From an uncultured Bacteroidales bacterium (lineage in GTDB: Bacteria > Bacteroidota > Bacteroidia > Bacteroidales > Muribaculaceae): DNA of 64,000 nucleotides. The first letter of the stretch is position 1, and every line of letters begins with the position of its first letter. The notes under the pieces are model-generated. The model was not told where the DNA came from. It worked only from the letters and a program-made list of their open reading frames with translations, and did not search any database. The stretch is from contig CAMTKF010000004.1 in the NCBI GenBank assembly GCA_947072905.1, forward strand, positions 31,416-95,415. Direction: 5' to 3'. Shown piece after piece: positions 57,437 to 64,000 of this stretch. The translations under genes and the position numbers were made by a program.

Positions 57437-59212
57437 TTATACTATAACGTTCTGAAGAGATGCCGGATTAAGGTATCCGATATGGCCGGATTCCTTACCT
57501 GAATCGGCTCCGAGTTGAACGTCAATAAGGGTAGGACGACGTGATGCGAGAGATGCCTTGAGGGCTGTTTCAAGCTCCTGAGGTGTGGTTACATAATAAG
57601 CGTCTGCGCCGAAGGCCTCGCCGAGTTTGTCGTATCGTGCGCGTATATCGAGGGTGGTGGGTGCGGGATCGCCGAATGGGGCTTCGCCTTCCTTACTCAT
57701 ATTTTCACCGATACCGTTGTAGATACCGCCGTTGTTGAAAATAATCACAGTAGCCGGCAAGTTGAAACGACATACAGTTGAGAAATCCATGCCTGAGAAA
57801 CCGAATGCGCTGTCGCCTTCGATAGCCACTACCTGCTTGCCTGTAGAAACCGCTGCACCTACTACCGAGCCCATGCCCATACCCATGATGGCCCATGTGG
57901 CACAGTCGATGCGCTGGCGTGGCTTGGACAACGTGATGGTATCGCGTGTATCATCAAGTGTATTGGCACCTTCGTTAACCAAAATCACATCAGGATTGGC
58001 TTCGAGGATAGGCTTGATTACATTGAGGGCAGTCCAGTGGGTCATAGGCGATGCGGTAGCCGCGTCCTTAAGGCGCTGGGCAAACTTGGCATCCTTGGTT
58101 TTGGTCTCGGCCTGAAGCGAGGGTACCCACTGCGGATCCATACTGAGTTTATATGCGGGAAGTGCCGCAAGCATGGCATCGAGTGTGGTCTTGAGGTCAC
58201 CGATCACGGGGGCTGCGATTGGCACGTTGCAGTCAATTTCCTGCGGGTCAATATCAATCTGAACAAACTTAAGGTCCTTATTATTAGCCCACTTGCCGTG
58301 TCCGCGCGAAAGCAGCCAGTTGAGGCGTGCGCCCACAAGGACTACAACATCGGCATTTTCCATAATGGTGGTACGGCACGAAAGTGCGCTCAGAGGGCCG
58401 TCGTCGGGCAGCAAGCCCTTGGCCATTGACATTGAATAGTAAGGAATTCCGGTTTTTTCTACAAATTCCTTAAGTTCATTTTCAACCTGTGCGTATGCTG
58501 CACCCTTGCCCAGAATGAGGGCAGGACGCTTGGCACCGGCGATGAGCTGCATGGCGCGATCTACAGACTCCTTTGAGGGAGCTACAGCCGGACATACATC
58601 CACGGGCTTATAGAACAATTTTTCGGCCTCTTCGCGGTCGATGATCGCACCAAGGCATGGGGTGGTTACATCAAGATATACACCGCCGGGGCGTCCGCTG
58701 ACGGCTGCACGATATGCGCGTACAACGGCCGTGGGGATGTCTTTGATATCATTTACACGATATGCGGCCTTGACAAGAGGTTTGGCAATGGCGAGCTGGT
58801 CGAGGCCCTCGTATGTACCCTGCTGCAGGTCGATGGGTTCGCGTACGCTTGAACCCGAAATCTGAATCATAGGGTAGCAATTGACTGTGGCATTGGTTGT
58901 GGCTGTAAGACCGTTGAGGAAGCCGAGCGACGATACTGTGAGAAGCACACCCGGAGTCTTGGTGAGATATCCGTGGGTCTGGGCAGCCATACCGGCCTGC
59001 TGTTCATGACGGAAGCCTACAAAGCGTATTCCTTGTTCCTGACACAGGTATGCGAGTTCGGTAACAGGAATACCTACAAGGCCATACATCTCCTTGACGC
59101 CCATCATGACGAGTGAGCGGGCAAGAACCCACATGCCGGTAACTTGATTTGGATATGATGGTGCAGCCGGCGTGGCGGCACTGTTTTGAGTATTGGTAGT
59201 TGTGGTTGACAT
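57437..59212 (-). CDS. oxc: Oxalyl-CoA decarboxylase (ThDP-dependent)
   Basis: GVKEMYGLVGIPVTELAYLCQEQGIRFVGFRHEQQAGMAAQ, EGDSAFGFSGMDFSTVCRFNLPATVIIFNNGGIYNG. Confidence 0.94.
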   Translation of the reverse strand: MSTTTTNTQNSAATPAAPSYPNQVTGMWVLARSLVMMGVKEMYGLVGIPVTELAYLCQEQGIRFVGFRHEQQAGMAAQTHGYLTKTPGVLLTVSSLGFLNGLTATTNATVNCYPMIQISGSSVREPIDLQQGTYEGLDQLAIAKPLVKAAYRVNDIKDIPTAVVRAYRAAVSGRPGGVYLDVTTPCLGAIIDREEAEKLFYKPVDVCPAVAPSKESVDRAMQLIAGAKRPALILGKGAAYAQVENELKEFVEKTGIPYYSMSMAKGLLPDDGPLSALSCRTTIMENADVVVLVGARLNWLLSRGHGKWANNKDLKFVQIDIDPQEIDCNVPIAAPVIGDLKTTLDAMLAALPAYKLSMDPQWVPSLQAETKTKDAKFAQRLKDAATASPMTHWTALNVIKPILEANPDVILVNEGANTLDDTRDTITLSKPRQRIDCATWAIMGMGMGSVVGAAVSTGKQVVAIEGDSAFGFSGMDFSTVCRFNLPATVIIFNNGGIYNGIGENMSKEGEAPFGDPAPTTLDIRARYDKLGEAFGADAYYVTTPQELETALKASLASRRPTLIDVQLGADSGKESGHIGYLNPASLQNVIV

Positions 59213-59253
59213 GATATAATTCTATGTGTTTTTTATTTCCTGTATTACAAAAT

Positions 59254-59277
59254 GGAGGGGACTGCGGGGTCCCCTCC
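59254..59277 (-). terminator. Terminator/attenuator-like hairpin between frc and oxc
   Basis: GGAGGGGAC / GTCCCCTCC stem followed on the minus strand by ATTTTGT. Confidence 0.55.
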
Positions 59278-59295
59278 GTCAGTTATGCGGATATG

Positions 59296-60594
59296 TTATT
59301 TAGCTTCGGGCTTGGGCATGGGAGCGGTAGTGCCGTTAGCCTTGAATTTGGCCATATCTTCGGCTGTGTAGCCCAGTGCGGCCAGCACTTCGTCGGTATT
59401 TCCGCCCAGTGTAGGACACGGACCGTAGGCAGGTGTATAGTTGCTCATGGTGAAGGGGCAACCTACGGTTACAAATTCGCCGACCTTGCCGCCCTGGTTG
59501 ATCTTCACAAGTGTATTGCCATCGTAAAGGCTCTGGTCTTCCATAAGTTCCTTGGTATTGATGACAGGTGCGCAGGGCACTCCGTAAGGTGCAAGTTCTT
59601 TGACAACCTCATACTTGTCGCGCTGTACGGCCCAGTCGCCTATACGCTTGTAGATTTCCTGTTTGTGACGGTCGCGGGCATCGGCGGTGTTGAAATCAGG
59701 ATTAGTAAGCCAATCCTCAAAACCTAAGCCCTTGCATGCCTTTTCAAAGTCTTTTGCATCACGCTGCAGGATAATGTAAGCGTATGCGTTGGGATCGGTT
59801 TCCCAACCCTTGCACTTGTAAGTCCAGCCAAGTACGCCTGAACCTTCCTGGTTACCGGAACGGGGAACATAGTCGGGGAACTTCTCATTAGGATACTGCG
59901 GGAACTGTGTAAGATAACCGAGACGGTCGAGGGTGAGCTGGTCGCGGGTCTTGATACGGCACAGGTTCAAGCATGCGTTGTGCATTGACTGATATACGTA
60001 AACGCCTTCGCCGGTCTTCTCACGCTGCATAAGGGCTGCAAGCAGACCAATCAGCATGTGCATACCGGTGTTTGAATCGCCAAGGGCCGCACCACTCTGT
60101 GTAGGCACATTGTCGGGGCCTTCCCACCAACCGGTGGTTGTGGCGGCGCCGGCTGTTACCTGTGCTACAGGTTCGTAAGCCTTAAGGTTGGCAAATCTCG
60201 ACGATACAGGGAAGCCCTTGATTGTACCGTAAATACATTTAGGATTAAGTTTGTGAACTTCTTCCCAGCTGAATCCGAGCTTATCCATAGCTCCGGGGTG
60301 GAGGTTTTCAATAAATATATCGGCACCCTGAATCAACTTGGTAAGGATTTCCTTACCGTCGGGGGTGGCGGCATCAAGTGCCAGTGATTTTTTGTCTGAG
60401 TTGAGCTGGAGGAAGTAGTAGCTCGGGCAATCGGGGTCAAACTGAAGTTCTTTACGAGTGGCATCGCCCGAACCCGGACGTTCAATCTTTATAACTTCGG
60501 CTCCGAGCCAAGCGAGCATTTGTGTACATGAAGGGCCTGACTGTACATTTGTAAAGTCAACAACCTTAATACCTTGAAGAGGTGCGTAATTCAT
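59296..60594 (-). CDS. frc: Formyl-CoA:oxalate CoA-transferase (class III CoA-transferase)
   Basis: LQGIKVVDFTNVQSGPSCTQMLAWLGAEVIKIERPGSGD, GAALGDSNTGMHMLIGLLAAL; adjacent to oxc. Confidence 0.93.
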   Translation of the reverse strand: MNYAPLQGIKVVDFTNVQSGPSCTQMLAWLGAEVIKIERPGSGDATRKELQFDPDCPSYYFLQLNSDKKSLALDAATPDGKEILTKLIQGADIFIENLHPGAMDKLGFSWEEVHKLNPKCIYGTIKGFPVSSRFANLKAYEPVAQVTAGAATTTGWWEGPDNVPTQSGAALGDSNTGMHMLIGLLAALMQREKTGEGVYVYQSMHNACLNLCRIKTRDQLTLDRLGYLTQFPQYPNEKFPDYVPRSGNQEGSGVLGWTYKCKGWETDPNAYAYIILQRDAKDFEKACKGLGFEDWLTNPDFNTADARDRHKQEIYKRIGDWAVQRDKYEVVKELAPYGVPCAPVINTKELMEDQSLYDGNTLVKINQGGKVGEFVTVGCPFTMSNYTPAYGPCPTLGGNTDEVLAALGYTAEDMAKFKANGTTAPMPKPEAK

Positions 60595-61004: not shown

Positions 61005-61580
61005 ATGACTAAGAACTTCAATACATATATTGAACATATTGACGTAGATGCTTGGCGCGAGATTTGCGTCAGCAAGGGCACACTGCGCCATTTTGCCAAA
61101 GGCGAGGAATTTGTCTCTATCGGCAAGGTTGGCCGATATTTCGGATTTATCCAATCCGGCACACTCAAATATGTGGCTCGTTCAGCTGATGGCACAGAGT
61201 ATGTGATGGGGCTGGTGTTTGGCAACGGATTTGTTGGCGACTGGCGTCACTTTTCACAAAATCAAAATGCGACGGTAGCCATCGTTGCCACATCAGATTG
61301 TGATATATACTGCATTACATCAAAAGAATTGAAAGTGATGATGGACTCCGATTCTTATTTCAAAGATATGGTAATGCACGCCACAGAAGCTGTTTATGGC
61401 ACGGTATACGATAGATACGTAGATTTATATGTCAAGACACCACAGCAAAGATATGAAGATCTTATAAATCGGCATCCCGACCTTTTTGACCTCTTTTCGC
61501 TCAAAGACATCGCTTCTTTTCTGAAAATCACGCCCACACATCTGAGCCGATTGCGAAAAAATAACGGAAATCAGTGTTAA
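61005..61580 (+). CDS. Crp/Fnr-family transcriptional regulator (copy 1)
   Basis: cNMP-binding fold (LRHFAKGEEFVSIGKVGRYFGFIQSGTLKYV), C-terminal HTH LFSLKDIASFLKITPTHLSRLRK. Confidence 0.9.
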   Translation: MTKNFNTYIEHIDVDAWREICVSKGTLRHFAKGEEFVSIGKVGRYFGFIQSGTLKYVARSADGTEYVMGLVFGNGFVGDWRHFSQNQNATVAIVATSDCDIYCITSKELKVMMDSDSYFKDMVMHATEAVYGTVYDRYVDLYVKTPQQRYEDLINRHPDLFDLFSLKDIASFLKITPTHLSRLRKNNGNQC

Positions 61581-61583
61581 AAG
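61372..61583 (+). repeat. 212-bp perfect direct repeat, copy A (3' end of crp copy 1)
   Basis: Base-for-base identical to 63590-63801 by direct comparison. Confidence 0.95.
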
Positions 61584-61587
61584 GCTT

Positions 61588-61614
61588 GACTCTCAACATT
61601 GTTGAGAGTTTTTA
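61588..61614 (+). terminator. Terminator after crp copy 1
   Basis: ACTCTCAACA-TTGTTGAGAGT hairpin followed by TTTTATTTTTATT. Confidence 0.85.
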
Positions 61615-61783
61615 TTTTTATTGGATGTAAAATTGTTGTGGCTCTCTTATGTGCCCATCTTTACTGAGTGCAAAGATACATAATTTTTGGGAAAGTGACA
61701 AATTCAATCATGCAGATTAAGGGGAAAGCGACAAAATTGAAAAATTAGATTTTTGGTATACCGATAATTTTATTAGTATAAAT

Positions 61784-61814
61784 TTGGGGAATATTGTCAA
61801 AATCGCTATCTTTG
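61784..61814 (+). promoter_or_regulatory. Bacteroidota-type promoter for the AAA/DUF4143 gene (TTTG, 19 nt, TATCTTTG)
   Basis: TTTG 61784-61787 and TATCTTTG 61807-61814. Confidence 0.75.
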
Positions 61815-61846
61815 CACTCGGAAACATAAAACAAAAACAAGGACAG

Positions 61847-63181
61847 ATGAAGATTTTTAAGAGGAAACTCTATGATGAAATGCTTAAATGGAAGCACGAC
61901 TCTAATGGCAGAACGGCGTTGCTCATTAAAGGGGCGCGGAGAGTTGGTAAATCCACTCTTGCACATACCTTTGCGCAGAAGGAGTATAAGTCATATATTG
62001 CCATTGATTTTGCCGTATGTAAACCTGAGGTTAAAGCATTATTTGACGACATATCAGACCTTAATTTCGTATTTTTGCGTTTGCAAGTATTGTTTGGGGT
62101 AGAACTACACGAACGAAATTCTGTGATAGTTTTTGACGAAGTGCAGGATTGTCCCAGAGCCCGACAGGCAATCAAGTATCTGGTAGCAGACGGACGTTAT
62201 GATTATATTGAGACAGGTTCGTTGATTTCAATTCGGCAGAATGTTAAAGATATTCTTATTCCCAGCGAGGAAGAGGAGATGGTAATGAATCCTTTGGACT
62301 ATGAGGAATTCCAATGGGCATTAGGTAATGAGGTGTCGATACCAATTATTAAAAAATTCTTTCAAGAAAGAAAAGGTTTCGGAGATGCCGGCGCAAGAGG
62401 TGAAATGCGCAATTTACGGTTGTATATGTTGGTGGGAGGCATGCCGCAAGCTATAAGCACTTATCTTGAGACCAATAATATGGAAAAGGTTGACAAGATG
62501 AAGCGGTCTATAATCAAGTTATACGAGAACGACTTTATTAAGATAGACCCGTCAGGCAATATCTCAAAAATGTTTATGGCTATCCCAGGTCAGTTGGCCA
62601 GCAATTGGGGGCGATATCAAATATCCTCTGCAACAGGAATAGACCACCCTGAGAGATTGAAGGGGCAGATTTTTGATATGCAGGATTCGATGGTTGTTAA
62701 TTTGGCATACCATGCGAATGACCCAAACGTTGGAATGGCTCTGCATAGAGATGGAGAAAAATTTAAAATGTTTATGGCTGATACCGGTCTGTTTATTACG
62801 CTGGCATTTTGGGATAAGAAATTCACGGAAAATATTATCTATGAGAAACTTCTGTCTGACAAACTGAGTGCAGACCTTGGTTATGTGTATGAGAATTTAG
62901 TGGCACAGATGCTCCGCGCCAATGGTCACGAATTATACTACTATACATGGCCATCTGAAACGAGTAATCATTTATATGAAGTGGATTTTCTTCTTTCAAA
63001 CGGCACTAAGATAGAGCCTATTGAGGTAAAGTCTTCCGGATATAAGACGCATAGGTCGCTTGACTTGTTCTGTGAGAAATTCTCTTCACGAGTGAACAAG
63101 CGTTACCTTATATATACAAAGGATTTGAGGAAAGATGGCAATATAACTTACCTCCCGGCATACATGACACAATTTCTATAA
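61847..63181 (+). CDS. AAA-family ATPase with DUF4143-type C-terminal domain
   Basis: LLIKGARRVGKSTLAHTFAQKEYKSYIAIDF, NSVIVFDEVQDCPRARQAIKYLV, YETGSLISI, LYEVDFLLSNGTKIEPIEVKSSGY; start at MKIFKRK. Confidence 0.92.
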   Translation: MKIFKRKLYDEMLKWKHDSNGRTALLIKGARRVGKSTLAHTFAQKEYKSYIAIDFAVCKPEVKALFDDISDLNFVFLRLQVLFGVELHERNSVIVFDEVQDCPRARQAIKYLVADGRYDYIETGSLISIRQNVKDILIPSEEEEMVMNPLDYEEFQWALGNEVSIPIIKKFFQERKGFGDAGARGEMRNLRLYMLVGGMPQAISTYLETNNMEKVDKMKRSIIKLYENDFIKIDPSGNISKMFMAIPGQLASNWGRYQISSATGIDHPERLKGQIFDMQDSMVVNLAYHANDPNVGMALHRDGEKFKMFMADTGLFITLAFWDKKFTENIIYEKLLSDKLSADLGYVYENLVAQMLRANGHELYYYTWPSETSNHLYEVDFLLSNGTKIEPIEVKSSGYKTHRSLDLFCEKFSSRVNKRYLIYTKDLRKDGNITYLPAYMTQFL

Positions 63182-63222
63182 AACGCCTGTATTTTCTGTA
63201 TTATCTGCATTTTGGAACAATA

Positions 63223-63798
63223 ATGTCTGACAACTTCAATACATATATAGAGCAGATTGATTTTGATGCTTGGCGCGAATTATGTGTCAGCATAGGCACT
63301 TTGCGACGTTTTTCCAAAGGCGAGGAATTTGTCTCCATTGGCAAAGTTGGTCGTTATATCGGATTTATACAATCCGGCACGCTCAAATATGTGGCTCGTT
63401 CAGCTGATGGCACAGAGCATGTGATGGGATTGGTGTTTGGCGAGGGGTTTGTTGCCGACTGGCCTTTTTGTCTGTACGGTAAGGAAGCGAAGCTGGCTAT
63501 TGTAGCAGTGACTGAAAGCGATATATATTGCGTATCGTCTGAGGCGGTGAAGAAACGTATGGACAACGACCCAAAATTTCGCGACATCATAATGCACGCC
63601 ACAGAAGCTGTTTATGGCACGGTATACGATAGATACGTAGATTTATATGTCAAGACACCACAGCAAAGATATGAAGATCTTATAAATCGGCATCCCGACC
63701 TTTTTGACCTCTTTTCGCTCAAAGACATCGCTTCTTTTCTGAAAATCACGCCCACACATCTGAGCCGATTGCGAAAAAATAACGGAAATCAGTGTTAA
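63223..63798 (+). CDS. Crp/Fnr-family transcriptional regulator (copy 2)
   Basis: Same length (191 aa) as copy 1, diverged sensor region, identical C-terminal part including HTH. Confidence 0.9.
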   Translation: MSDNFNTYIEQIDFDAWRELCVSIGTLRRFSKGEEFVSIGKVGRYIGFIQSGTLKYVARSADGTEHVMGLVFGEGFVADWPFCLYGKEAKLAIVAVTESDIYCVSSEAVKKRMDNDPKFRDIIMHATEAVYGTVYDRYVDLYVKTPQQRYEDLINRHPDLFDLFSLKDIASFLKITPTHLSRLRKNNGNQC

Positions 63799-63801
63799 AA
63801 G
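63590..63801 (+). repeat. 212-bp perfect direct repeat, copy B (3' end of crp copy 2)
   Basis: Identical to 61372-61583; offset 2,218 bp. Confidence 0.95.
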
Positions 63802-63805
63802 CCTT

Positions 63806-63840
63806 GACTCTCAACATTTGTTGAGAGTTTTTATTTTTAT
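63806..63840 (+). terminator. Terminator after crp copy 2
   Basis: CTCTCAACA-TT-TGTTGAGAG then TTTTTATTTTTATT. Confidence 0.85.
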
Positions 63841-63845
63841 TGGTT

Positions 63846-63853
63846 GTAACTTT
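63846..63853 (+). promoter_or_regulatory. -7 element TAACTTTG for a gene running off the right edge
   Basis: TAnnTTTG; ATG at 63960 starts MKKLHNLQIISKLV, open to the edge. Confidence 0.35.
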
Positions 63854-64000
63854 GCGCAGATATTCCAAGAATATTTTCCTAAAACCTCGATGCTATACGC
63901 AAATGAACAAATTAATCATAACAACCCGTTGGTTGAATTAAAATTCTAAATATTTACAAATGAAAAAGTTGCACAATTTGCAGATTATTAGTAAATTAGT

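Follow-up and report, generated by a model that had tools for sequence, protein, structure and literature searches.

Two tandem Crp/Fnr-type regulator genes with a common DNA-binding end, a predicted operator behind their stop codons and an interposed ATPase gene in a Muribaculaceae genome

Class II CRP and FNR sites are centred at -41.5, and residues R82 and S83 of Escherichia coli CRP contact cAMP. In the Bacteroidetes, the sigma-A -7 box is TAnnTTTG and occupies positions -12 to -5 (PMC9723704). A Crp homolog of the Bacteroidales, CrpPg of Porphyromonas gingivalis, is presented in PMC12040651 as a cAMP-independent global regulator. Gene conversion between paralogs is on record in Bacteroidia for the release factors RF1 and RF2 (PMC4530459).

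Herein, we analysed two crp genes of an uncultured member of the Muribaculaceae. The window, meaning the whole stretch of 64,000 nucleotides under analysis, is the end of a 95-kb contig in a draft assembly of 2.69 Mb and 94 contigs. The relatives used for comparison were Muribaculaceae from animal guts, one genome per species and mostly metagenome draft assemblies. Some of their loci appear in two collections (e.g. L043/L146, L042/L142 and L049/L161), and these pairs are not independent for that reason. The model that we favour, and hold to be fairly probable as a whole, is that of two anciently diverged tandem Crp/Fnr activators with a converted DNA-binding end, their own operator, an inserted ATPase gene and a copied block of crp tail and operator.

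Layout of the locus and the two crp genes

The crp1 gene, an AAA_14+DUF4143 ATPase gene and the crp2 gene are all on the + strand, and crp1 and crp2 have 191 codons each (Table 1). The maximal exact match between the two crp regions covered 212/212 bases at an offset of 2218 and was bounded by mismatches on both sides. The TAA stops of crp1 (61578-61580) and crp2 (63796-63798) lie 3 bases before the ends of the respective repeat copies, and about 40 bases of operator/promoter sequence beyond the repeat are nearly identical between the two. The sequence-only reading of this DNA had reported an identical repeat ending just past both crp stops, and the match confirmed it. A search of the complete 2.69-Mb assembly recovered the 212 bp at full length at these two sites only, plus one weak partial match of 73%. 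The identity is far above chance. The contig, and with it the window, ends 199 bases past repeat copy 2.

Table 1. Features of the crp1-crp2 locus in window coordinates.
Feature	Position	Strand	Evidence or remark
crp1, Crp/Fnr-type regulator	61005..61580	+	ORF, PF00027, AU test, trees; 5' part clusters with crp from L141/G220
Repeat copy 1 (C-helix end, helix-turn-helix, stop, 3 nt)	61372..61583	+	maximal exact match
OP1, degenerate palindrome after crp1, core CTCAACATTGTTGAG	61588..61610	+	spacer one base short
Decayed -7 box TAAAATTG behind OP1 (consensus TAnnTTTG)	61628..61635	+	sequence comparison
TATCTTTG, a separate -7 box that likely serves the ATPase gene	61807..61814	+	sequence
AAA_14 + DUF4143 ATPase, PADLOC candidate PDC-S01	61847..63181	+	
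crp2, Crp/Fnr-type regulator	63223..63798	+	ORF, PF00027, trees, AlphaFold model, Foldseek; 5' part clusters with crp from L134
Repeat copy 2	63590..63801	+	maximal exact match
OP2, intact palindrome ACTCTCAACATTTGTTGAGAGT, predicted Crp operator	63806..63829	+	predicted centre at -41.5
TAACTTTG, intact -7 box	63847..63854	+	29 nt from the OP2 centre
First codons (MNKLIIT) of the gene that OP2 is predicted to control	63903..63923	+	broken by the adjoining repeat
Probable end of an insertion-sequence-like element with at least 11 copies	63924..64000	+	contig stops here

The similarity of crp1 and crp2 is unevenly distributed. Their nucleotide identity was 0.85 in codons 1-79, approximately 0.52 in codons 80-122 and 0.995 in codons 123-191. 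Counted in bases, the first 240 coding bases were 85% identical and bases 241-366 only about 51%, after which the genes were identical through the stop. The dS value was about 0.5 in codons 1-79, and codons 123-191 held zero synonymous differences in about 46 sites, which has a probability of about 6e-10 at the rate of codons 1-79. The phylogenies of the two parts also differed. In the tree of the 5' 366 nt, crp1 grouped with the crp of L141 (whose contig also appears as L366 from G220; support 100/99) and crp2 with that of L134 (100/97), and a sister relationship of crp1 and crp2 was rejected (p-AU 9.6e-5, lnL -39). In the tree of the 3' 207 bases, crp1 and crp2 were united with a support of 97/96. 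A phylogenetic conflict between the unconverted 5' and the putatively converted 3' part is thus present.

Given that the 5' parts belong to separate lineages and the 3' ends are identical, one DNA-binding end was in all likelihood overwritten by the other. The simplest reading is that gene conversion, or recombination between the homologous 3' ends, has acted over the DNA-binding end, and the 212-bp repeat is better explained in this way than by a recent duplication of the unit. The 5' parts diverged long ago, which rules out a recent duplication of the whole ATPase-crp unit, and crp1 and crp2 resemble recent copies in their 3' ends only. A fast divergence of the crp1 ligand pocket in this genome alone is ruled out as well, since the unusual pocket segment of crp1, FGNGFVGDWRHF, is common to the L141 crp. 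The conversion probably ran from crp2 to crp1, a weakly supported direction that is suggested because a quick tree of the 3' part puts L134 next to crp1 and crp2; in the careful 3' tree, the position of L134 as sister was not significant and the grouping of crp1 with L141 was not formally rejected (p 0.32).

The oxalate gene pair oxc-frc (window 57437-60594), which is conserved in most genus members, adjoins crp1. None of the 14 frc loci of relatives had a crp beside frc, which rules out an old neighbourhood of crp and the oxalate genes.

Crp proteins, predicted operator and predicted targets

The N-terminal cNMP-binding beta-roll, PF00027, was matched above the cut-off by crp1 (2.8e-11) and crp2 (9.2e-9). 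The Pfam HTH_Crp family had no sequence match in either protein. The AlphaFold model of crp2 (pLDDT 89) matched MtbCRP, GlxR, FNR and CAP in Foldseek (prob 1.00), and its C-helix, C-terminal helix-turn-helix and overall fold are those of CRP. In the ungapped HMM register, the positions of R82 and S83 of E. coli CRP are taken by A89/K90 in crp2 and A89/T90 in crp1; the conserved cAMP-contacting Arg and Ser of the phosphate-binding cassette are absent from both in this register. Since R82 and S83 align to non-matching residues, cAMP is unlikely to be the ligand of either product. Crp1 and Crp2 should bind the same predicted site because their helix-turn-helix parts are identical, and they would do so with different ligand pockets.

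The crp2 stop codon is directly followed by the palindrome CTCTCAACATTTGTTGAGAG (core 63810-63825), and across the Muribaculaceae this palindrome is placed after crp stop codons. At 38 of the 43 crp-adjacent sites with a recognisable motif and -7 box, the distance from the motif to TAnnTTTG is exactly 29.0 nt. With TAnnTTTG at -12 to -5, this spacing puts the palindrome centre at -41.5. Relative to the inferred transcription start, the palindrome would therefore be an activator site of class II geometry at about -41.5.

We compared the occurrence of the motif with that expected by chance and with that of the regulator. A palindrome with a -7-like box (NAnnTTTG) at the exact spacing was found behind 38 of 82 crp genes, compared with 43 of 4,800 segments drawn at random from these contigs. 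The other 44 crp genes were without a site by the strict criteria within 170 nt, and many of them show a weaker or slightly shifted palindrome. The pattern CTCAACATNTGTTGAG was present in 45 of the 344 family genomes and the reversed control pattern in 3. A strong Crp match (71 genomes, hand-picked at E below about 1e-70) was present in 38 of these 45 genomes versus 71 of 344 overall (Fisher p 7e-24); the remaining seven of the 45 carry the palindrome but no strong Crp match. The operator counts are lower bounds because the motif patterns missed variants with shifted or weaker arms. No known structured RNA was found in Rfam, and a literature search found no description of this operator. We conclude that these Crp regulators most likely use the palindrome as their operator. 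Directly behind the stop codon of each crp stands a predicted operator with a promoter for the gene that comes next, and the palindrome would serve as the regulators' own class II activator site that switches on the downstream envelope gene.

The palindrome may double as a terminator at many sites. The palindromes in the window fold as hairpins of -12 to -14 kcal/mol, and a T-run is present at 38 of 56 palindrome sites. Furthermore, an exact copy in the same genome (G000:C14:45153; L091 5156-5171) lies after an unrelated gene of 653 aa with no -7 box at the usual spacing, and it may act as a terminator there. The same observations would fit a palindrome that is nothing but the intrinsic terminator of crp, at an incidental spacing to the next promoter. 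We consider this very unlikely. A plain terminator does not explain the palindromes because 18 of the 56 sites have no T-run; the spacing to the -7 box is fixed at 29.0 nt, some sites are far from any crp yet upstream of regulon-type genes, and the palindrome co-occurs with Crp across genomes. A role as an operator, with termination as a possible additional function, is the reading that we retain.

The genes behind the predicted operators encode mostly predicted outer-membrane or secreted proteins. These predicted targets include OMP_b-brl_3 barrels of about 700 residues, DUF3943 and TonB_C proteins, Porph_ging proteins with TonB-dependent receptors, and lipoproteins. The ORF that OP2 faces is interrupted at 63924 by a sequence of 75-77 bases (CCCGTTGGTTGAATTAAAATTC...GTAAATTAGT), which is also found, in differing contexts, at 10 or more other contig ends of the same genome (C14, C17, C21, C28, C37, C51, C52, C65, C69 and C85 of G000). 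Because of this recurrence, it is probably the end of a multicopy insertion sequence. The rest of this element and of the OP2 target gene was not found among the small contigs of 3 to 4.6 kb and the plasmids.

Two further elements were observed near crp genes. A near-palindromic element of 56-58 bases (GTGGGCTTGTAGCGCA..GTCGGC..GCCGGTGCGCGGTC..ACAAGACCCAC) lies in the last crp codons, just before the operator, and lengthens the Crp protein by a short tail (L146 6571-6628, L170 3103-3158, L183 6568-6623 and L184 6568-6623; looser copies in L135, L138, L186, L193 and L196). Many of these crp genes also have as a neighbour a member of a second, more distant subgroup with about 35% identity (L143 7564-8127, L146 4139-4702, L183 4232 and L191 2012). 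In other loci, this second subgroup is followed by a different palindrome, e.g. ACATTTGTTAAG in L183 and L191.

The interposed ATPase gene and crp-tail repeats in relatives

The ATPase matches PADLOC PDC-S01 at full length (E 1e-91, residues 2-443), and no relative of solved structure was found for it by sequence. The sequence-only reading had suggested that the ATPase and the regulator could form a cassette. In relatives, the two were not found together: none of the 19 loci of related ATPases in the genus had a crp nearby, none of the approximately 80 crp loci in other species carried this ATPase, and genomes rich in this ATPase are often without this Crp. The context at the 19 ATPase loci rules out the ATPase as a partner of the regulator. 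Judging from the layout, the ATPase gene would be an incidental insertion. A gene with its own promoter would have been inserted between the crp1 operator and crp2 and would have cut crp1 from its former target, after which OP1, now one base short, and its -7 box would have decayed. The empty state, without the ATPase, was not found at this exact locus in any relative. A 60% identical DUF4143 ATPase lies on the opposite side of the same oxc-frc pair in L283 (G029:C13), which is probably a coincidence.

Defence candidates are found among the genes interposed beside crp. In five species, including that of the window, the interposed genes match PDC-S01, PDC-S02 (twice), PDC-M64, PD-T4-5 and PDC-M01B, and an apparent transposase is also among those of the relatives. 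Among 70 genes further from crp, at most four gave defence-type matches. This enrichment (p about 0.005 to 0.02) is only suggestive, being post hoc, small in numbers and based on 19 interposed-gene positions listed by hand. Directly upstream of crp, three genus members carry a 156-aa gene and an 88-aa HTH gene (PADLOC PDC-M64B/C; L043 7832-8565, L062/L209 and L067).

Repeats of the crp 3' end were observed at several loci of relatives. Locus L136 (= L347 from G080) has four successive genes or gene pairs, each with a crp-tail remnant, an operator and a promoter. In L138 (= L348 from G172), a block of 238 bases that includes the last 81 bases of crp recurs 4.8 kb downstream with 97% identity; the second block stands before a gene for a small membrane protein, and a third operator precedes a DUF3943 gene, whose counterparts in G043 and G011 come directly after crp. 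In L134, crp is separated from the OMP697 barrel gene, its immediate downstream neighbour in L141, by a CAAX protease gene and further genes, and a 72-base crp tail (93%) with the operator is repeated after the CAAX protease gene. In G011, a 4.8-kb stretch that holds a second crp, DUF3943 and defence-candidate genes lies between a full crp and a crp 3' part (about 420 bases, about 97%). In contig C62 of the window's own genome, the operator and a short remnant of a crp tail, but no crp, stand before a DUF3943 gene. Since repeats of the crp 3' end flank inserted genes in relatives, such repeats recur, and that of the window belongs with them. The block of crp 3' tail, operator and promoter appears to have been copied repeatedly to new positions by homologous recombination. 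The outcome would be local arrays of several genes, each with its own copy of a Crp-dependent promoter, and the 212-bp repeat would be one product of such recombination.

The repeats allow other explanations. The crp 3' tail with its operator could be a recurrent docking site in Muribaculaceae, homologous or site-specific, for gene-bearing DNA that is often defence-like; a single-crossover integration would duplicate the block on both sides and recruit the captured gene to the regulon. The gene arrays separated by duplicated blocks in L134, L136 and L138, the extra genes between crp and OMP697 in L134 where L141 has the two adjacent, and the defence candidates beside crp in five species as against the few matches among distant genes are all in line with such a dock. 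However, neither an integrase nor a circular intermediate nor a defined junction was observed, and the blocks vary in length (about 50 to 420 nt), as fits ordinary homologous recombination; the enrichment in defence candidates has the weaknesses given above. We regard a dock as unlikely. If it were true, a captured gene would gain a ready-made Crp-dependent promoter, and the regulator would enlarge its regulon by copying its own tail.

The sequence-only reading had proposed a self-restoring cassette, in which the ATPase and crp are lost or amplified through the 212-bp repeats and one working regulator is always left. Its geometry is exactly right, in that recombination at the common 3' end of these co-oriented genes could delete or amplify a 2.2-kb unit and leave one intact crp, and similar direct repeats of the crp 3' end surround inserted genes in G011, L138, L134 and L136. 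That part of the proposal stands, but the ATPase and crp as a unit do not, given that the two do not travel together at any of the other loci examined and that the crp copies come from old, different lineages. In this comparison of one genome per species, the copy number of the unit showed no variation. A cassette of this kind is therefore distinctly unlikely. An assembly artefact or a mixture of strains seems still more remote, and we judge it highly improbable. The assembly is indeed a draft in 94 contigs that stop at overlaps of about 77 nt, which the repeat exceeds, and a tandem array of exact unit copies would yield an identical contig. Against this, both copies have unique and different flanks on both sides within one contig, and similar layouts with a common 3' end are found in independent assemblies. 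Gene conversion between the crp genes, together with copying of the tail-operator block, is the explanation that we favour.

Comparison with known systems

These observations offer a concrete predicted operator, with predicted envelope targets, for a Crp subfamily from gut bacteria that are uncultured and have hardly been studied. They also provide a case in which the DNA-binding end is kept identical between diverged regulator paralogs. Regulons appear to grow here by the copying of a block in which the 3' end of the regulator gene itself is joined to the operator; if this recombination also captures defence genes, regulon growth would be linked with the turnover of defence genes.

The ATPase is a full-length match to PADLOC PDC-S01, an AAA_14-DUF4143 single-gene phage-defence candidate; that family is a computational candidate only, and the relatives of the ATPase are not beside crp. 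The arrays in L136 and L138 resemble the gene-cassette arrays of integrons in having tandem genes separated by a repeated short block. In contrast to integrons, the blocks have a regulator gene's 3' end as their source, and a promoter is part of each. No integrase was recognised among the genes examined beside crp, and the OP palindrome has no GTTRRRY core and showed no attC consensus.

Like the class II promoters of E. coli CRP and FNR, the locus combines a CRP fold, a cNMP-binding domain and a palindrome at -41.5 from the inferred start. It differs from them in the operator, CTCAACATNTGTTGAG, and in the position of this operator directly behind the regulator's own stop codon, and from E. coli CRP in that the equivalents of R82 and S83 do not match. 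With CrpPg, as far as that protein is covered by the part of PMC12040651 used here, the regulators have in common that they are of Crp type, of the Bacteroidales and outside the classical cAMP group; in the same part of that source, neither an operator behind its own gene nor an operator array was found for CrpPg. As in the conversion between RF1 and RF2, one functional domain would have been overwritten by that of a paralog while the rest stays diverged. Here, however, the paralogs are tandem regulators, the putative conversion would be very recent (no synonymous change), and the tract covers the DNA-binding domain and ends just past the stop codon.
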